A stretch of 54,384 bases of DNA, taken from Chitinophagales bacterium. GTDB lineage: Bacteria; Bacteroidota; Bacteroidia; Chitinophagales; UBA10324. Below, in pieces: positions 20,813-53,378 of this stretch. The notes beneath the pieces were generated by a model. It saw only the letters and a program-made list of their open reading frames with translations, made no database searches and was not told the DNA's origin. The number at the start of each line of letters is the position of its first letter. Positions within the stretch are counted from its first letter, which is position 1. The stretch is taken from positions 1-54,384 of the forward strand of contig JANWXQ010000073.1 of assembly GCA_025057275.1 (NCBI GenBank), given 5' to 3'. A program made the translations under genes and the position numbers.

Positions 20813-21541
20813 CTACATTTTTACCAATTGCCGGATCCATTGACCGGATGACGTGCGCACTTTGACCACATACAGGCCCGGAGGCCATGCCGATGCATCC
20901 AAACGGGTAGCGGAATTCGGCAACATCATGACCTTATTTATCTCTTTTCCTTGAATATCATGTATGATGATAACGGCCTGCTCTGACCCTGCATCAGTAA
21001 ATTTCACATACGATTCTGTTGCCGCCGGATTGGGCCAGATCAGAAGCGGTTCATTGTCCTGCAGCAACGGCGCTCCCACATCCTGCTCAACCACAATCCG
21101 GTACCCCGGCGTCGGCGAGGGCAGATACAAAACCGGAGTCAGATACACATTGGCCTGAATGATCAACGGATATACGCCTTCGGTTGTGGGTGTTCCTGTC
21201 AGTTTCACGCAACCAACGGAGTCAGCCGGAAACAAACAACTTTCCGGATGACAGGCATAGGAAAAGGGCACACTGGAAGGGATGTCCTGCAAACCCAGCA
21301 CGCCGGTGAGCGCCACCTGATACACGTTGATCGGATTGCCGTTGTTCAGTACGGTCTTGGGCACTTTAAACTGAACTACGGTTTCATAGGGCTGATTGAC
21401 GATGGCCGGAGGCAGGTTCACCAGCGTGTCCGGAGCAATGCCATAACCGGTATCGGGCCAAAAGGGGATGCAGGCCTGCTGCCCATGCGCCGGCAGCCAC
21501 AGCGCGGCTGCAAGCAAGCCGGCGCGTATCACTTTTTTCAT
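20813..21541 (-). CDS. Secreted T9SS-sorted protein, paralogue of the protein at 49307-50065
   Basis: 242 residues from the ATG at 21541, which begins a signal peptide (MKKVIRAGLLAAALWLPAHG). The mature N terminus is QQACIPFWPDTGYGIAPDTL followed by PAIVNQPYETVVQFKVP; later come FSYACHPESC and VGCVKLTGTPTTEGVYPLII, then a T9SS domain with IWPNPAATESYVKF, DASAWPPGLYVVKV and a basic end. The same pattern, including four aligned cysteines, occurs in the product of 49307-50065. The fold may be immunoglobulin-like. It is the first gene of the run leading into nhaA (4-base gap). Function unknown. Confidence 0.85.
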   Translation of the reverse strand: MKKVIRAGLLAAALWLPAHGQQACIPFWPDTGYGIAPDTLVNLPPAIVNQPYETVVQFKVPKTVLNNGNPINVYQVALTGVLGLQDIPSSVPFSYACHPESCLFPADSVGCVKLTGTPTTEGVYPLIIQANVYLTPVLYLPSPTPGYRIVVEQDVGAPLLQDNEPLLIWPNPAATESYVKFTDAGSEQAVIIIHDIQGKEINKVMMLPNSATRLDASAWPPGLYVVKVRTSSGQWIRQLVKM

Positions 21542-44844: not shown

Positions 44845-45981
44845 TTATTGTACCCGCTTTCCCTCCCGGTAGCTCACAACATAGGCGTCTTTGTAACCCT
44901 GCTTCCGGTACCGGTCAAGATGGCTCTGGGCCATTTCGTAATCGGAATATGCACCTACCAGATACCGGTAAAGCCCTTGTTCTGTATGCTCAACTAGAAG
45001 AGAATCTCCCACACTGGCAAAGCGCGCATCATGAGCTGGCAGCAGCTTGGTTGAAGCATACAATTGAATGCGGAACACCATGTTCTGATCCGGTTTAATA
45101 CGTTCTTCCGGTAACTCATAACCCTCTCTATCGGCTTCTTCGGCGCCCGGCTTTGGCTTTCCTGAGGCCGAGAGCAATTCTTCCTTCTGATCGGCAGCTT
45201 CCACCTGACGCTTAAACGTTACGATGGCATCGGCTATCCCCCTGGCAATTTGCCTTTTCCCCTCCTCTGAAGCCAGAAAGCGTTCTTCATTGCGGTTGCT
45301 GAGAAAGCCTACTTCAACAAGCACTGCCGGCATGGTTACCCGCCATAAAACCAGAAATCCGGCCTGCTTTACCCCCCGGCTGTGTCGTCCGCGTCGCGCA
45401 AGCTCCTTTTCAATCAGCGAGGCCAGCGTTATACTTTGCGCCAGGTGAGCGCTCTGATTCATGCTGAGCACGATGTAGGCTTCCGGTGACTGCGGATCAA
45501 AACCTTCGTAATGCGTTTCATAGTTTTTTTCCATGGCAATAACACTGTTCTCCCGCATCGAAACCTCCAGGTTTTCTTCGGAAACATGCAAACCCATCAG
45601 ATAGGTTTCTGTGCCGTACGGCGCTGATGATTTGCTTGCGTTGCAGTGAATAGAAACAAACAGATCGGCGCGGTGCTTGTTGGCAATCTGTGCCCGCTGA
45701 TGCAGGGGCACAAACACATCGGTGCGCCGGGTTTGAACGATTTGCACATCCGGCAGGGCTTCTTTAAGCAACTTTTCCGTCAGCAGGGCAATGTCCAGAG
45801 TAACTTCCTTTTCTACTGCCGAAACACCGCGGCAGCCGCTGTCATGCCCGCCGTGCCCTGCATCCAGCACAATGGTTTTGATCCGATACGCTTCTTGTGC
45901 CACGGCTACCGCAGCTGGAAAATGCAGGGCCAGCGTGAGCGCCGTAACGCCGCAGATCTGCCGAATGCATGTACCGTTCAC
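44845..45981 (-). CDS. N-acetylmuramoyl-L-alanine amidase with SPOR domain
   Basis: 378 residues from a GTG at 45981, chosen because it begins a signal peptide (MNGTCIRQICGVTALTLALH, ending AVAQE) and follows a good promoter element. The Amidase_3 domain (about 35-265) has VLDAGHGGHDSG, HQRAQIANKHRADLFVSIHC and VLVEVGFLSNRNEE, which contain the zinc ligands and catalytic glutamate. The C terminus (about 300-378) is a SPOR domain with GLYRYLVGAYSDYEMAQ, which binds denuded glycan at the septum. The enzyme cuts peptides from glycan strands during division. Divergent from lptD across 39 bases. Confidence 0.93.
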   Translation of the reverse strand: MNGTCIRQICGVTALTLALHFPAAVAVAQEAYRIKTIVLDAGHGGHDSGCRGVSAVEKEVTLDIALLTEKLLKEALPDVQIVQTRRTDVFVPLHQRAQIANKHRADLFVSIHCNASKSSAPYGTETYLMGLHVSEENLEVSMRENSVIAMEKNYETHYEGFDPQSPEAYIVLSMNQSAHLAQSITLASLIEKELARRGRHSRGVKQAGFLVLWRVTMPAVLVEVGFLSNRNEERFLASEEGKRQIARGIADAIVTFKRQVEAADQKEELLSASGKPKPGAEEADREGYELPEERIKPDQNMVFRIQLYASTKLLPAHDARFASVGDSLLVEHTEQGLYRYLVGAYSDYEMAQSHLDRYRKQGYKDAYVVSYREGKRVQ

Positions 45982-45993
45982 AACACAAAAACG

Positions 45994-46001
45994 CAAATCT
46001 A
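45994..46001 (-). promoter_or_regulatory. TAnnTTTG promoter element for the amidase gene
   Basis: Minus-strand TAGATTTG is an exact consensus match, 12 bases before the GTG at 45981. It supports that start over the longer reading frame. Confidence 0.45.
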
Positions 46002-46008
46002 TCCACTC

Positions 46009-46016
46009 TATTTTCG
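46009..46016 (+). promoter_or_regulatory. Near-consensus promoter element for lptD
   Basis: TATTTTCG differs from TAnnTTTG at one position and sits exactly four bases before the GTG at 46021, the same spacing as at 7176 and 8092. Confidence 0.35.
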
Positions 46017-46020
46017 CAGG

Positions 46021-48546
46021 GTGCCCTGGCTTCACTTTGCTGCGCTCACGGTATTGTTGATTGCCCCGAAGTTGTATGCCCGTGCATACACTTTGCAGCA
46101 AGCTCCCGTAGCACCGCCAAGCGAACCGGCGGCCTCACTGGCTGACACCATCCGCCCGGCAGCACGAACCGACACGTTGGATGCTCCGGTCCGCTATCAG
46201 GCTGCGCTGCGCACCTGGATGGATCTGCCTGGCCGGCGCGTATTCCTGATTGGAGCAGCTGAAGTACAATACCGCGATATTACCCTGCGTGCCGACTCGA
46301 TTGTCTTTGACTGGCAAAGCAGTGAAGTCAGCGCTTTTGGCCGCGCTGATTCTTCCGGAAAAATCACCGGCCTGCCGGTCTTTACTCAGGCCGGATCAGA
46401 ATATCGGGCTAAAACCATCACCTACAATTTTCGCACCCGCAAAGGAAAAATCACCGACATCGTTACCGAGCAGGGGGAAGGCTATTTGATCAGCCAGACC
46501 GTTAAGCGGTTACCTGATGAAGTGTTGTACGGACTGGAGAACAAGTACACCACCTGCAAGCTGGAACATCCGCATTTCTACATCAGCGCCGGCAAGGTCA
46601 AGGTGGTTCCTGATAAAGCCGTTTATACCGGACCAGCCAATCTGGTGTTGGCTGATGTGCGCACTCCCCTGCTCGTGCCCTTTGGCATTTTTCCTTTATC
46701 CGAAAAACGGCGCTCGGGAATTATCGTTCCCGAATACGGCGAGCGCACCGACCTCGGCTTTTTCCTTCGCAACGGTGGCTACTATTTCGGCATCAGCGAC
46801 CGCATGGATCTGGCCCTGACCGGCGATATCTATTCCAAAGGAAGCTGGGTAGCCAATGTGGCTTCCCGTTTCGTGCGCCGCTATCGCTACAACGGTTCAC
46901 TGCAGCTGACTTATGCGCGTTTGCGTTCTTTTATTCCGGAAAAAAACACGTATGCCGCTAACCCGCAGTTCAATGTCCGGCTTAACCTGAGTCAGGATAG
47001 CCGTGCCCGTCCCCACAGCAACCTGTCGGCTTCGGTGGCTTTCGGCTCATCGCAGTTCAATCAGTTGCTTGGTGATGTACGCAACAATTATCTGAACAAC
47101 ACCTACCAGTCATCGTTGTCGTACCGACAGACCCTGCCCAACACGCCACTGCATTTCACCCTGTCGGCAGCGCATCAGCAAAGTACGCTCTCCCGACTGG
47201 TCAGCCTGCAATTGCCCGTGCTGAACATCGGCATGGCACAGATCTATCCCTTCCGGAGAAAAATTGCTGCAGGCCGCCTGCGTTGGTACGAGAAGCTGGG
47301 CATCAGTTACAGCGGCGATGCACGCAATCAAATTGCTGCTCCGGACTCCACGCTGTTTTCCTCCAAGGCCATGCAGCAATCGCTGGCCGGCATGCAGCAC
47401 AGCATTCCCCTTTCGCTAAGCATGCAGGCTTTTCGTTATGTGACCGTAACGCCCTCGCTGAGTTTCCGCGAAGTGTGGAGCCTGCAGCGCATAGTGCGAA
47501 GCTGGGATGCCGAAGCCCAAGAGCTTGTAACCGATACGCTGAAAAAGTTTCTTGCCGGACGCGAGTTTTCGTTTGGTTTGGGCACCTCCACCCGTTTGTA
47601 TGGTACCCTGCAGTTTGCCAAAGGAAAAGTTCGGGCGCTGCGGCATGTGTTTACTCCTTCGCTGAACTACAGTTACCGCCCCGACTTCGGTGCGTCCCGC
47701 TTTGGCTATTACTACGAAGCCGTCATGGACACTGCCGGCCGCAGGCAGCGGTTCTCCTATTTTGATGGCGCACCCTACAGCGGCCCGGCTGCCGGAGCCT
47801 TCCATGGCCTTAACTTTTCCCTGGCCAATGTGCTGGAAATGAAAACGGCCTCCCGCCGCGACACCGTCAGCGGCATCAGAAAAGTGCGTCTGTTGGAGGG
47901 GCTGAATCTTTCAGGCAATTACAACTTCGCTGCCGACTCCTTCCGGCTGGGCAACTTCAACCTGTCGGCACGCACCACGTTGCTGGACCGCATAAGCATC
48001 AATGCCAGTTCCACGCTGGACCCCTACGTGCGCGACAGCCTGGGACATCGTCGGAATCAGTTGCTGGCCGCTGCAGGCAAAGGCCTGGTGCGCTGGACAT
48101 CGGCCATCGTCGGCATCAATGCTTCGTTTCAATCACCAAAATCAGGTACGCCTGCACCCCAACCCGATTATGTGGTGCTTTCCGGGAATCAGTATCAGGA
48201 CTTCTCCATCCCCTGGAATGTATCGCTTGGCTACAACCTGCTGCTTCGTCAAAGTGTTACCAGCGCCGGTGCCGACACAACACTGATCAGCCAGGCGCTG
48301 AGCATCAATGGCGCCTTCAATCTCACCCAACGCTGGCGGCTCAGCGGCAGCACCTCGTTTGATTTTGTTCAGAAAAAATTTCCCACCGCCATGCTGGAAA
48401 TCTATCGCGACCTGCACTGCTGGGAAATGAGCATGCAATGGATACCGTTCGGCATCCGCCAGAGCTACAATTTTACCTTACGCGTGAAAGCACAGGTCCT
48501 GCAAGACCTGCGGCTGAGAAAAACTTCCGACTGGTACAGCTTCTGA
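46021..48546 (+). CDS. lptD: LPS-assembly protein LptD
   Basis: Outer-membrane barrel that inserts LPS into the outer leaflet. The GTG at 46021 gives 841 residues with a signal-like start (VPWLHFAALTVLLIAPKLYA); the frame is open back to 45646 but that part is antisense to the amidase gene. Periplasmic OstA module at about 75-190 (FLIGAAEVQYRDITLRADSI, EYRAKTITYNFRTRKGKI), then the LptD-specific region with PFGIFPLSEKRRSGIIVPEY and GYYFGISDRMDLALTGDIYS, and a long barrel to a C-terminal Phe (DWYSF). The cluster also has OstA-like and MlaD-like genes. Start codon is the main uncertainty. Confidence 0.9.
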   Translation: MPWLHFAALTVLLIAPKLYARAYTLQQAPVAPPSEPAASLADTIRPAARTDTLDAPVRYQAALRTWMDLPGRRVFLIGAAEVQYRDITLRADSIVFDWQSSEVSAFGRADSSGKITGLPVFTQAGSEYRAKTITYNFRTRKGKITDIVTEQGEGYLISQTVKRLPDEVLYGLENKYTTCKLEHPHFYISAGKVKVVPDKAVYTGPANLVLADVRTPLLVPFGIFPLSEKRRSGIIVPEYGERTDLGFFLRNGGYYFGISDRMDLALTGDIYSKGSWVANVASRFVRRYRYNGSLQLTYARLRSFIPEKNTYAANPQFNVRLNLSQDSRARPHSNLSASVAFGSSQFNQLLGDVRNNYLNNTYQSSLSYRQTLPNTPLHFTLSAAHQQSTLSRLVSLQLPVLNIGMAQIYPFRRKIAAGRLRWYEKLGISYSGDARNQIAAPDSTLFSSKAMQQSLAGMQHSIPLSLSMQAFRYVTVTPSLSFREVWSLQRIVRSWDAEAQELVTDTLKKFLAGREFSFGLGTSTRLYGTLQFAKGKVRALRHVFTPSLNYSYRPDFGASRFGYYYEAVMDTAGRRQRFSYFDGAPYSGPAAGAFHGLNFSLANVLEMKTASRRDTVSGIRKVRLLEGLNLSGNYNFAADSFRLGNFNLSARTTLLDRISINASSTLDPYVRDSLGHRRNQLLAAAGKGLVRWTSAIVGINASFQSPKSGTPAPQPDYVVLSGNQYQDFSIPWNVSLGYNLLLRQSVTSAGADTTLISQALSINGAFNLTQRWRLSGSTSFDFVQKKFPTAMLEIYRDLHCWEMSMQWIPFGIRQSYNFTLRVKAQVLQDLRLRKTSDWYSF

Positions 48547-48551
48547 ACGCG

Positions 48552-48626
48552 TGGGTTGTACTGGGCTCGAACCAGTGACCCCTACCCTGTCAAGATAGTG
48601 CTCTGAACCAACTGAGCTAACAACCC
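48552..48626 (-). tRNA. tRNA-Val (anticodon GAC)
   Basis: On the minus strand the cloverleaf is complete: acceptor GGGTTGT/ACAACCC, D stem GCTC/GAGC with an AGTTGGTTCA loop, anticodon stem CTATC/GGTAG with loop TTGACAG (anticodon GAC), variable GGGTC, and T stem ACTGG/CCAGT with loop TTCGAGC. Discriminator base A. The CCA end is not encoded. It is 5 bases from the lptD stop, in convergent orientation. Confidence 0.95.
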
Positions 48627-48731
48627 GTTAAGGCAAAGATATTACAGGAAAAAAGCAATACGGCACTGCTTGCTGTTACCGGGCTCCGGGCAAACTGGTT
48701 AGGAATCTAATCCTGTAACCAACCAAACGAA

Positions 48732-49159
48732 CTATTTACCGCCGACTCGGCTCAGCCCGTCAGGAACCACATTTCATGTAATGCAGGAATACGATAATGC
48801 TTGCCGCCAAGGTTCTCCCTGTGGCCATCCCCAATGAGCATGGGATACCTGCGTCAACGGCTGGGTTTGTTGTGAGAATTGCACCACCACGCGCGTTCGG
48901 AAATGGTTGTTTCTTCGTTTCGGAAACGGCGGTGGCGCATTCCAGGAAAACGAAATCATTTTCTTGGGCAGAAAGGAAAGTACATAACCTCCGTTGCTAA
49001 CCCCCAGATCTTAGGGATTTTCCATCAGAAAATAAATCTCATATGCCCCGTCAGGGATCAGTTTAATGTAGTGACTCTGTTCACAAAATGTTTAAAGCCT
49101 TCATGGGTTGACCAGCACCACTACATTTTTTGTGAAGACTCGTGGATGGGTCGGCTCAT
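48732..49159 (-). pseudogene. Decayed SRPBCC/AHSA1-family gene
   Basis: Reading the minus strand from ATG 49159 gives MSRPIHESSQKM, stop, then WCWSTHEGFKHFVN; a frameshift near 49085 moves into the frame giving IPDGAYEIYFLMENP, stop (TAA 49013-49011), then SNGGYVLSFLPKKMISFSWN, APPPFPKRRNNHFRTRVVVQ, SHAHWGWPQGEPWRQALSYS, a TGA where the family usually has Trp (48776-48774), and NVVPDGLSRVGGK ending TAG. GAYEIYF, LSFLP.KMISFSWNAPP.FP and HWGWPQGEPW are hallmarks of AHSA1/SRPBCC small-ligand-binding proteins. Two or more stops and a frameshift mean no product is made. Family recognition is by motif only. Confidence 0.8.
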
Positions 49160-49306
49160 GCGGACTTGTTGCTTAATAGCAGGCGACCTTATTTAGGTCC
49201 TTACTGAAAAGATGGACACAGAAAAAAATTTGAAAAAAACTAATGAGCGAATTGCGTTGTTAGGATGCCATCCGCTTGGTAATAAGCCCGCAGCCGGCTG
49301 GTTCGG
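49160..49306. other. Non-coding interval after the T9SS gene stop
   Basis: About 147 bases between the pseudogene start and the stop of the T9SS gene. A-rich around 49218-49242; a short GACCT-TATTT-AGGTC inverted repeat at 49184-49198. No ORF or promoter consensus seen. Confidence 0.4.
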
Positions 49307-50065
49307 TTAGCGGCCGGAAATGACCACGGTTCTTCGGTAACTCCTGTGTTCATTAATCAGCTCCAGCAGATAAGTGCCTGCTGGCAGGTTAATATCCAAA
49401 GACACTACCTGGGCAGGTGTCGTCAGTTCCTGATACTGAACAAACAGCGTGCGGCCGGTCAGGTCGCTGATCCGGAAAAGGACCATGCCGGCGGTTGGTT
49501 GCACAACAGGAACATACAACCGGCCATTGCTGGGGTTTGGATAAGGCAGCCCGAGGCCTTCAGCAATTTCCCGGAAGGGCTCAGCCCCGCTTTGCGGCAA
49601 AACCTGCAGATAGAAAAACGTGATGGTGTCAGGTGTGGCCGGTAGGGAAAACGAATAACAGTCGTTGACATAAATCGTAACAAACACCTGCAACGGATAG
49701 ATCCCCACCTGATCTGGGGTGGCCGTTCCGCTGATCTTGGCGCATCCGTTGTCGCCTCCTTTCACACTGCACCACGGCACATGGCAGGCATACGAAAAGC
49801 CCTGCGGCAATCCCTGAACGCTGTCAATGGTCAGCGAGTCAATGCATAGATGAACATCGTAAATCACATAGCCTCCGAATACCAGGTCCACCACGGTGTC
49901 GGCAGGCAAACGGAAGTAAATAACTTCCTCATAGGGGATTTGCACAATGGCCGGAGCCAGCGTGTCGGGTTCAATTCCTGAAACAGTGTCGTTGTTGGGG
50001 ATGCAGGCCTGTCCGTTAGCGAAGAAAAATCCGGCGGCAAATAAGAGAGTAATTATCCAGCGCAT
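49307..50065 (-). CDS. Secreted T9SS-sorted protein, paralogue of the protein at 20813-21541
   Basis: 252 residues from the ATG at 50065, which starts a signal peptide (MRWIITLLFAAGFFFANG). Mature part: QACIPNNDTVSGIEPDTLAP, AIVQIPYEEVIYFRLPADTV, FSYACHVPWC and NGCAKISGTATPDQVGIYPL; then a T9SS domain with LGLPYPNPSNGRLYVPV, ISDLTGRTLFV and LPAGTYLLELI. The four cysteines and surrounding residues align with the product of 20813-21541, so the two are paralogues with a shared unnamed domain. It is divergent from the large G8-like T9SS gene and has no operon partner on its strand. Confidence 0.85.
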   Translation of the reverse strand: MRWIITLLFAAGFFFANGQACIPNNDTVSGIEPDTLAPAIVQIPYEEVIYFRLPADTVVDLVFGGYVIYDVHLCIDSLTIDSVQGLPQGFSYACHVPWCSVKGGDNGCAKISGTATPDQVGIYPLQVFVTIYVNDCYSFSLPATPDTITFFYLQVLPQSGAEPFREIAEGLGLPYPNPSNGRLYVPVVQPTAGMVLFRISDLTGRTLFVQYQELTTPAQVVSLDINLPAGTYLLELINEHRSYRRTVVISGR

Positions 50066-50144
50066 GGTTTGCCAGGTTGTAAGTAACAATGTTAGAAAAA
50101 ATTTCCATCTTCACCCGAACTTTCACTTTACCAATCCCATCACC

Positions 50145-53100
50145 ATGAATAAACTGCTTGCTGCCCTTTTGCTGTTAGGGATACAGACTCCGGCTTTTGC
50201 CGTGCTGCGCATTGCTTCCGTCAGCGGAAACTGGAACAATGCCGCCACGTGGGGCGGAACGGTTCCGGCCGCTAACGATGACATTCAAATCAATTCCGGC
50301 GTAACCGTTACGATTAATACCAACCCGGCCACTATCGTTAACGTTACGATTAACGGTACCCTGCAGTGGGATGCCACCGGCACCGGCCGCTCCTGGACAG
50401 TTACCGGCAATTTTACCGTCAATAGCGGCGGCAGTTTTGTTTGTGCTGCCCCCGGCACGGCCACGACGCACACCTTCACCTACAACGGCAACAACCTGAC
50501 CAACAACGGAACGTTTAACCTGGTTAACGGAACCAACAAGTGCAACGTTACCTTGAGTTCCACCGGTCAGAATAACATCGGTGGCAGCAACGCACTGACT
50601 TTTAACAAGCTGATCCTGAACAATACCAACGGCAAGTTTCAGATTGTTTACGAAGACGAGTCTTTTACCACCAGTGAACTTACTCCCACCAAACTCAATG
50701 TAAGCATCACCACATTGGACACCATGGCCATCCGTCAGGGGCTGCTCATTGGCTGCGCCACCAACAATGCCACCATCTCCCACAGCTTTGCCCACTTTAA
50801 AATGGGCGCCGGCGGATCGAAAATCACGTCTTCCGTATCGTTGAGCGGCACCACCACCTTTACCATCAACACCGCTATGGTGCTTAACGATGCCACCAAC
50901 GCCAACGTTGCCTTGACCATTACGGGCACCTTCACTTCGCCTTCTATGTCGCAAAGCAATGCGGCGACAGCTTTTGCCCTCATCGGACCGAATTGCGTGG
51001 GAGGGAGCAGCAATGCCACTGCGCTAAACGTCAATGGCGAGTGGAACATGACGGACATTTTTGTGTTTGTCGGCAACACCAAGTTGTTTGGAGGTACTGA
51101 ACCCAACAACCCCACCGTTACCTGTTCGGCAAATGTCACCTGGGCCAGCAGCGAAACCCATACCATCGACCTGCCTTTTACCAGCGACGACTTTTACCTG
51201 AAAACGTGCTACTTCGGCCTGTTTGATTCGCAGGGTGCCTTCCCCGTCATCCAACTCAATGGCGGAAGTGCCGCATCGCCCAACAACTGGAACGTTGCCT
51301 TTGATGTATTCAATGCCGAAATCCAGGACTCCAGCCCGCTGGGTAATTACACCGTCGTGCAGATTTCTGAATCCATGACCAACTGGGTGGTCAATGGCCA
51401 TTGGAGAGTTTCTGCCAATAATGCCATTGCCGTTCATTCCGACAATACGATTACCATCAACGGCTCTTTGCGCACCGTCAGCAATTCGGAAATTGCCGGT
51501 TCAGAAACCGAAACGGAAGATGCCGGTTATGTGCCTGTTGCCGGTCCGAAAATTCTTTTCGGCAGCAGCGGCGTGCTCTATGTAGAAAACCTTGCCGGCT
51601 TAGGCAACGGGCTGCTCAGTGAAGCGTCCAGCAATGTGTCCATTAAAAACCGTTCGGCCGACATCGATTGGGATCTGACTGCCATCAGCACCTCGGGAAC
51701 GATTGCTTATGAAGTCAATAACCAAACGGTAACTGCCCGCACCTACAACAATTTAACCTTGAATGCAGGAACAAAAACACTGGCCAATGCTTCCACCGTC
51801 AACGGAACGCTTACCACAGGCAGCGGCACCACACTGGCCAATGGCGGCTTTACGCTGTCCGCTAAAGGAGCAGTGAGCCACAGCGGCACACACAGCGGCA
51901 CAGGAAAAATAGTTTTCAACGGTACCACCAGCCAGTCGCTGAGCGGCAGCAGTACCGAATGGGGCAATGTGGAACTGAACAACAGTGCTGGTGCCGTCTG
52001 CAATGCCCCTCTTTCCACCTCTGGAACATTTACCCTCACTAACGGCGTGCTGACCACTACCAGCACAAACCTGCTCAGCCTGAGCGGTACGGGCACCATT
52101 AGCGGGGGAAGCAGCAGCTCCCACGTTTCCGGACCTATGGCCAAAACCACAACTTCCACCAGTGCCTTTACCTTCCCTGTTGGCAAAGGAGGCCGCTACC
52201 GTCCGGTTACGGTTACGCCGGCAGCGTCGGTGAGTACTACCTGGAACGTAGAGTATTTTAACAGCGCTTTTTCCAACACCACATCGTTTACCTCACCCAT
52301 CACCAGCGTCAACACGGCATCGCACTGGATTGTTGACCGCACCAGCGGCTCGGCCTCAGCAACCGTAAGACTGCAATGGGGCAGTGAAGAAGGGCTTGCC
52401 GATCTCAACGGCCTTACGGTGGGTCGCTGGAACGGTTCGTCGTGGACCGATGCCGGCAACACCGGCACCACCGGTACAACTTCTTCGGGAACCGTTACCT
52501 CTGCCACCGTTTCTGCGTTTTCTCCCTTTACGCTGGCCGAAGCCAATACGATCAGCACAGGCACTATCAGTGGCTCGCCCTTCTGCGCCGAGGTAACCAT
52601 CAGCGTTCCCTTTACCTCCACCGGAACGTTCAATACCGGAAACGTTTACACTGCTCAGATCTCGGATAAAAACGGCAGCTTTGCCGCGCCCACCACATTG
52701 GGCACGCTGGCCAGCACGGCAAACTCCGGCACCATCAGCGCCATCTTTCCGCCGGAATTTCCCAAAGGAAAAAAATACCGCATCCGCGTGGTGTCCAGCA
52801 GTCCTGCGGTTACCGGTACCGACAATGGCAGCAACCTGGAAATGCTGGATTGCGCCAAGCCCACCGGCATGACGGCATCGGGCATCACGCAAACTTCGGC
52901 CACCATCAGTTGGAATGCCATGGCCTGCGGGGTGGAATACCGGTTGCAGTATCGCAAGCAGGGCACCAGTGGCTGGACCAATAAAACCGTTGCCACCAAC
53001 TCTTACACCATCACCGGCCTGACGGCAGCCACCACCTACGAATACCGCGCCCGCACGCATTGTACGCCCACAGCGAGCACCAAGTCGGGCAATTCCCCCA

Positions 53101-53378
53101 TCCAGACGTTTACGACCTCTGCAAAGCTGGCTGCTGAAGATGCCCTGTCCTCACCGGTCCTTTTTCCCAACCCCGCTGTCACTTCGGTTACCGTGCAGCT
53201 TCCTGACGGGGCCAACAGCCTGCGCTTGTCTGACCTCACCGGACGTATGCTACAATGGCTGGATACTGCTCCCCATACCAGCATCACCCTGGACGTAAGC
53301 AACCTACCGGCAGGCATATACTTTGTGGAAATCCAGACCGGCAGCCGCAGCACGGCGCACAAGTTGGTGAAGGAGTAG
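50145..53378 (+). CDS. Large secreted G8-like/Fn3 protein with T9SS sorting domain
   Basis: 1077 residues from the ATG at 50145, where a signal peptide begins (MNKLLAALLLLGIQTPAFA). Asn-, Thr-, Ser- and Gly-rich throughout. The N terminus has SGNWNNAATWGGTVPAANDD followed by short strands as in G8-type beta-helix surface proteins; a middle part of repeated short strands (VNGTLTTGSGTTLANGGFTL, SHSGTHSGTGKIVFNGTTSQ); an Fn3 domain near 905-990 (SATISWNAMACGVEYRLQYR, YTITGLTAATTYEYRARTH); and a T9SS domain at about 1005-1077 (VLFPNPAVTSVTVQL, LSDLTGRML, LPAGIYFVEI, HKLVKE). Likely a surface adhesin or polymer-binding protein; no catalytic site seen. Confidence 0.85.
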   Translation: MNKLLAALLLLGIQTPAFAVLRIASVSGNWNNAATWGGTVPAANDDIQINSGVTVTINTNPATIVNVTINGTLQWDATGTGRSWTVTGNFTVNSGGSFVCAAPGTATTHTFTYNGNNLTNNGTFNLVNGTNKCNVTLSSTGQNNIGGSNALTFNKLILNNTNGKFQIVYEDESFTTSELTPTKLNVSITTLDTMAIRQGLLIGCATNNATISHSFAHFKMGAGGSKITSSVSLSGTTTFTINTAMVLNDATNANVALTITGTFTSPSMSQSNAATAFALIGPNCVGGSSNATALNVNGEWNMTDIFVFVGNTKLFGGTEPNNPTVTCSANVTWASSETHTIDLPFTSDDFYLKTCYFGLFDSQGAFPVIQLNGGSAASPNNWNVAFDVFNAEIQDSSPLGNYTVVQISESMTNWVVNGHWRVSANNAIAVHSDNTITINGSLRTVSNSEIAGSETETEDAGYVPVAGPKILFGSSGVLYVENLAGLGNGLLSEASSNVSIKNRSADIDWDLTAISTSGTIAYEVNNQTVTARTYNNLTLNAGTKTLANASTVNGTLTTGSGTTLANGGFTLSAKGAVSHSGTHSGTGKIVFNGTTSQSLSGSSTEWGNVELNNSAGAVCNAPLSTSGTFTLTNGVLTTTSTNLLSLSGTGTISGGSSSSHVSGPMAKTTTSTSAFTFPVGKGGRYRPVTVTPAASVSTTWNVEYFNSAFSNTTSFTSPITSVNTASHWIVDRTSGSASATVRLQWGSEEGLADLNGLTVGRWNGSSWTDAGNTGTTGTTSSGTVTSATVSAFSPFTLAEANTISTGTISGSPFCAEVTISVPFTSTGTFNTGNVYTAQISDKNGSFAAPTTLGTLASTANSGTISAIFPPEFPKGKKYRIRVVSSSPAVTGTDNGSNLEMLDCAKPTGMTASGITQTSATISWNAMACGVEYRLQYRKQGTSGWTNKTVATNSYTITGLTAATTYEYRARTHCTPTASTKSGNSPIQTFTTSAKLAAEDALSSPVLFPNPAVTSVTVQLPDGANSLRLSDLTGRMLQWLDTAPHTSITLDVSNLPAGIYFVEIQTGSRSTAHKLVKE

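Follow-up and report, generated by a model that had tools for sequence, protein, structure and literature searches.

Remains of a probable AHSA1/SRPBCC gene, at two stages of decay, in a tRNA-flanked gap of two sister species

A gap that looks empty in a compact bacterial genome, lying between a tRNA-Val gene and a gene for a T9SS-sorted protein, raises the question of whether it is plain spacer or the remains of a gene. It belongs to the stretch of 54,384 nucleotides analysed here as a whole and referred to below as the window. A sequence-only reading had proposed that this interval, which it put at 680 bases, hides an AHSA1/SRPBCC pseudogene on the minus strand. The length is exact (48627-49306), as the tRNA ends at 48626 and the stop of the next gene lies at 49307. 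The surrounding features are as follows.

45922..48546 (start approximate), plus strand: gene for an LptD-like protein (Pfam LptD_2, E 2.6e-157)
48551..48626, minus strand: tRNA-Val (GAC), located with ARAGORN; a flank also present at the syntenic locus of the sister species
49307..50089, minus strand: gene for a T9SS-sorted protein (Por_Secre_tail; ORF list and Pfam), the other flank

The 680 bases hold no supportable intact gene. The plus-strand ORFs that run across them (48797-49000 and 48879-49196) are without Pfam match, no Rfam family reaches its gathering score in 48500-49400, and the gap region shows no promoter-like site and one terminator-like site (1.2 expected).

The gap was compared with intact relatives by means of a profile that was aligned to the DNA by a script tolerating frameshifts and stops. 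Of 21 relatives 19 were extracted, the weakest two (L053, L054) being omitted; the profile was made from 17 of them (L034-L050), with the partial L051 and the divergent L052 kept outside, and alignment A2 and the counts of conserved columns given below use 16 rows (L037, with a masked N-terminus, was excluded). The minus strand scored 211.4 and the plus strand 23.4, and none of 500 dinucleotide-preserving shuffles of the gap reached the minus-strand score (mean 25.0, maximum 42.5); two intact genes, each left out of its own scoring profile, scored 389 and 363. The part read in frame 1, with stops written as X, matched a profile of 16 relatives with E 7.2e-30 (104.4 bits). Its match to Pfam AHSA1, the sole Pfam family listed for it, is weak (E 0.034, 14.8 bits), and since this lies below the curated score of 22.1 bits the relic is filed as a remnant of a PF08327 member and not as a member; three intact relatives tested were assigned to AHSA1 above the cut-off. 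Zero NCBIfam models match the relic or these three relatives. In the profile alignment the core motifs follow each other on the minus strand in the order expected of the SRPBCC family, and the three peptides picked out by the sequence-only reading, GAYEIYF and HWGWPQGEPW among them, are found in frame 1 of that strand in the order it gave. The interval is thus very likely a broken AHSA1/SRPBCC gene, with these parts:

48732..49171 (5' end approximate), minus strand: very likely AHSA1/SRPBCC pseudogene, whole recognisable extent (frameshift-tolerant profile alignment)
48732..49097, minus strand: bulk of the relic, read in frame 1 and interrupted by stops; subfamily profile match at 48786-49097
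49098..49171, minus strand: N-terminal portion, read in frame 2 and containing the stop TAG 49123-49121
49084..49099 (approximate), minus strand: region of the frameshift from frame 2 to frame 1 (frame translations and profile alignment)
48774..48959, minus strand: leftover ORF of 61 amino acids with an internal ATG, inside the relic (ORF list)

The extent first suggested for the pseudogene, 48732-49159, was right in location and slightly short, as a lenient alignment carries the relic to about 49171.

The lesions can be read directly from the translations, in which an asterisk stands for a stop. Frame 1 of the minus strand gives EQSHYIKLIPDGAYEIYFLMENP*DLGVSNGGYVLSFLPKKMISFSWNAPPPFPKRRNNHFRTRVVVQFSQQTQPLTQVSHAHWGWPQGEPWRQALSYSCIT*NVVPDGL and ends at the TAG at 48734-48732, and frame 2 supplies the preceding part, SSQKM*WCWSTHEGFKHF. 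Since the N-terminal part (WSTHEGFKHF) is in frame 2 and the rest in frame 1, a frameshift must lie between about 49099 and 49084. Compared with intact homologues the relic therefore carries one frameshift and the stops at 49123, 49013 and 48776, which bears out the frameshift and several stops that had been described for it. Two of these stops occupy tryptophan positions. The TGA at 48776-48774 is in ungapped register with the invariant tryptophan of the AW motif near the C-terminus of the relatives (...YSCIT*NVV in the relic, ...YFNQAWNVV in L034), in agreement with the proposal that this stop lies where the family has a Trp. The TAG at 49123-49121 in frame 2 is in register, by eye, with a column of alignment A2 that has Trp in 13 rows and Tyr in the remaining 3 of 16 (M*WCWSTHEG in the relic, MWQKWTTHQG in a relative). 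The TAA at 49013-49011 is a further internal stop of frame 1, and an additional frame-1 TAA (49094-49092) lies beside the frameshift. An inverted repeat around the frameshift (49065-49083 and 49109-49127) was considered as a template-switch source of the lesions and was dropped, because 5 of 60 shuffles contain an inverted repeat as good.

Constraint on conserved residues is relaxed to a modest degree. Among the columns kept in at least 90% of the 16 relatives, counted only within the alignment of the relic, 23 of 29 (79%) are retained and six conserved residues have been substituted; the count leaves aside the two Trp positions turned into stops, which the aligned part does not reach. The corresponding figures for five intact members, each withheld in turn, are 29/29, 28/30, 29/31, 29/30 and 26/30. 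Since the most divergent intact member tried (L049, 87%) is only somewhat above the relic, the loss of residues is a modest measure if taken alone; the case for a pseudogene is carried by the stops and the frameshift.

A working gene read by means of recoding, with readthrough of the stops and frameshifting, would account for the well preserved core. It would have to pass all three kinds of stop and a frameshift within one gene that has also lost conserved residues, and this makes it almost vanishingly improbable. The G+C content at third positions (0.484, versus 0.645 and 0.608 in the neighbouring genes) points the same way, a weak argument in view of the similar value (0.474) of an intact relative in a different genome. 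An error of sequencing or assembly in an intact gene is extremely improbable as well: the assembly is a draft in 108 contigs and a frameshift is a common type of error, but several stops, one frameshift and six substitutions of conserved residues would have to be explained within 440 bases, and a second relic is present in the separate assembly of a sister species (see below). A single lesion taken by itself could still be an assembly error, as the analysis covered one assembly of this organism. The leftover ORF of 61 codons (with its own ATG) contains the best preserved core and is, taken alone, without Pfam match; that it is still made and keeps some reduced function, which would slow the decay of the core below the neutral rate, deserves hardly any credence. 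It may appear as a hypothetical protein in the list of a gene caller.

Intact relatives of the lost gene occur elsewhere in the order. When the frame-1 part was searched as protein (stops written as X, E <= 0.001), 21 of the 297 other genomes of the order gave matches (22 of 298 with its own), the best with E 9.6e-26 and 45% identity and the best four at 45-46%; those at the bottom of the list (E 1.5e-4 and 6.7e-4) may come from other subfamilies. None of the 21 matches listed besides that of the window itself has an internal stop. The same search at the same threshold gave no match in the 15 other genomes of the family to which the organism belongs. A looser profile search gave weak matches in 8 of these 15 (best E 9e-7, 30 bits), and as 10 of the 11 weakly matching places coincide with Pfam AHSA1 matches they are taken to be other members of the wider family. 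The genome that contains the window has one further AHSA1 gene, intact and of a different kind (25.6 bits). One AHSA1 match in another genome of the family (L006, G010:C14:71935-72378) has a single internal TAA and is perhaps another broken family member.

In a tree, the relic is placed among L034-L038 and L041 from the order, L110 from the same class, and the group of L043-L045, L047 and L050; the fork at which it is placed has support of 83/97 and is drawn open, and the branch of the relic is very long (1.95, median 0.43), in keeping with relaxed constraint. The relic is related to an intact subfamily found in other families of the order, and two histories would account for it, inheritance accompanied by many losses and an old transfer into the genus. 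L034 and L035, two of the intact relatives, stand among different gene neighbours, and in the loci of 10 intact relatives that were checked no tRNA is present. A DNA search with the gap (E <= 0.001) found nothing in 59 other relatives.

The syntenic locus was compared in the one other genome of the genus in the dataset, that of the sister species. Both species have the order LptD, tRNA-Val GAC, gap and T9SS gene, and the two flanking proteins are 73% (LptD) and 68% (T9SS-sorted) identical in amino acid sequence. The gap of the sister species (L085:382-1015) reaches a score of 44.7 on the same strand, over L085:650-787. This score was reached by 0 of 500 and 0 of 2000 shuffles of that gap (maximum 43.7; Gumbel p about 2e-4) and by 0 of 500 column-permuted profiles, and among 251 tiles of 634 bases drawn from the window and its relatives the tile of the sister gap alone attains it (next best 36.2). 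A permissive blastn between the two relics aligns them in the core with 70% identity over 71 alignment columns (E 5.6e-6, for this pair of sequences), and the distance from the last core residue to the tRNA is similar (266 bases in the sister, 282 in the window). The sister relic is recognisable across about 47 residues only. An ordinary profile search misses it even at E <= 10, as does the DNA search, and for this reason its recognition rests on the shuffles, the permuted profiles, the tiles and blastn. By these tests, what is left of the gene in the sister gap has the same position and strand and is further decayed than the window relic; a comparison with the syntenic locus in close relatives had been recommended by the sequence-only reading. 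The DNA adjoining the end of LptD was also checked in four other genomes of the family (L086, L088, L090 and L089, the last a short contig end); it has neither a tRNA nor a relic signal, so that synteny beyond the genus is not seen in those four.

The sequence-only reading also drew attention to the tRNA beside the relic, and the adjacency is real. An arrival of the gene on an element integrated at the tRNA, followed by decay, would be in keeping with the distance of 105 bases between the two and with the absence of matches elsewhere in the family. The usual target of integrases is the 3' end of a tRNA, and the relic is at its 5' side. In addition, the arrangement is common to both species, the interval has no plasmid match, and a DNA search lists one copy of it in its own genome, with no second copy. 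A recent arrival of this kind is accordingly very unlikely, neither the arrangement nor these searches of plasmids and of the own genome show a sign of a mobile element, and the proximity of the tRNA looks incidental.

The presence of a syntenic relic on the same strand in the sister species implies that the gene was very probably present at this locus in the ancestor of the genus. The number and timing of its losses can be approached from the adjacent LptD gene, whose 304 fourfold sites include 192 at which the two species differ (a corrected distance of about 1.4 changes per site). This divergence far exceeds the wear of the window relic, which argues for losses at separate times; the window relic looks too well preserved for a sequence that has decayed since the split, and separate losses are the likelier explanation. 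Of the 16 conserved columns common to both alignments, 13 are retained in the window relic and 8 in that of the sister, and within the aligned core no stop or frameshift is common to both. Independent losses after the split, the one in the window being the later, are therefore likely. The rival to this part of the reading, a single inactivation before the split followed by unequal decay, is a lesser possibility, though a real one: it would fit relics at the same place and strand in both species and the lack of a match in the rest of the family (0 of 15 genomes), but the aligned core shows no common stop or frameshift, and a gene decaying over about 1.4 changes per fourfold site should have lost many more of its conserved residues than the 6 of 29 missing here. 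An initial lesion within the part that does not align could be common to both species, and the timing argument is rough, as counting alignable columns only favours retention. As regards independent losses, the earlier suggestion of a recent loss stands in a relative sense, the loss in the window being recent with respect to the split from the sister; the sister has also lost the gene, apparently earlier.

The history that would join these observations begins with an intact minus-strand gene of some 150 codons in the genus ancestor, coding for a single-domain AHSA1/SRPBCC protein (helix-grip fold). The gene would then have become dispensable, and each lineage would have lost it on its own and at its own time, the window's later, through point mutations of an ordinary kind and a small indel; the present remnant is predicted to yield no functional protein. 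The lost product was probably a small soluble helix-grip protein, presumably with a hydrophobic ligand-binding cavity, to judge from the fold; a hydrophobic ligand is the usual expectation for proteins of this type.

Several known systems can be set beside the relic. With the PF08327 subfamily represented by L034, L035, L036, L038, L041 and L110 it shares the order and register of a series of motifs (WxxWTTHEG, GAFEIYF, LSYLPxxMLSFSWNAPPxFP, RN, WVV, LTHLGW and AWxxVL), and it differs from it in its frameshift, its stops, the six lost conserved residues and the long branch noted above. The nearest solved structures to the intact subfamily are those of YndB (PDB 2kte, 2kew) and BC4709 (1xn6), with a sequence profile E of about 1e-7; both are intact genes and more distant members of the family, YndB being an AHSA1 protein of Bacillus subtilis according to the title of a reference in PMC3057182. 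Bacterial pseudogenes hidden in intergenic spacers are the kind of object reviewed in PMC11078800. The relic resembles them in its decayed reading frame and in its synteny with a relative, with no essential difference, except that this locus allows an earlier and a later stage of decay to be set side by side in sister species. The locus is a case of ordinary gene loss that left an ordinary pseudogene, and it says nothing new on the AHSA1/SRPBCC protein family itself. Its point is a modest one, namely that a seemingly empty gap in a compact bacterial genome can harbour recognisable remains of a gene; it offers two decay stages of one gene at one locus in two sister species, and a small example of what is probably the repeated loss of the same dispensable gene.

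Some observations concern the genes around the gap. Two pairs of listed ORFs overlap: 44845-46101 (minus strand) and 45646-48546 (plus strand) do so head to head by 456 bases, from which one or both of their starts are probably placed too early, and the listed start of 49947-53378 (plus strand) overlaps the divergent ORF at 49307-50089 (minus strand), so that one of these starts was probably also called too early. The 1143 amino acids encoded by the ORF at 49947-53378 include a G8 domain, fibronectin type III and, in addition, a T9SS sorting tail. A likely paralogue of the T9SS-sorted protein at 49310-50089 lies elsewhere in the same genome, at 20849-21517 of the window (minus strand; 37% identity, E 8e-19).
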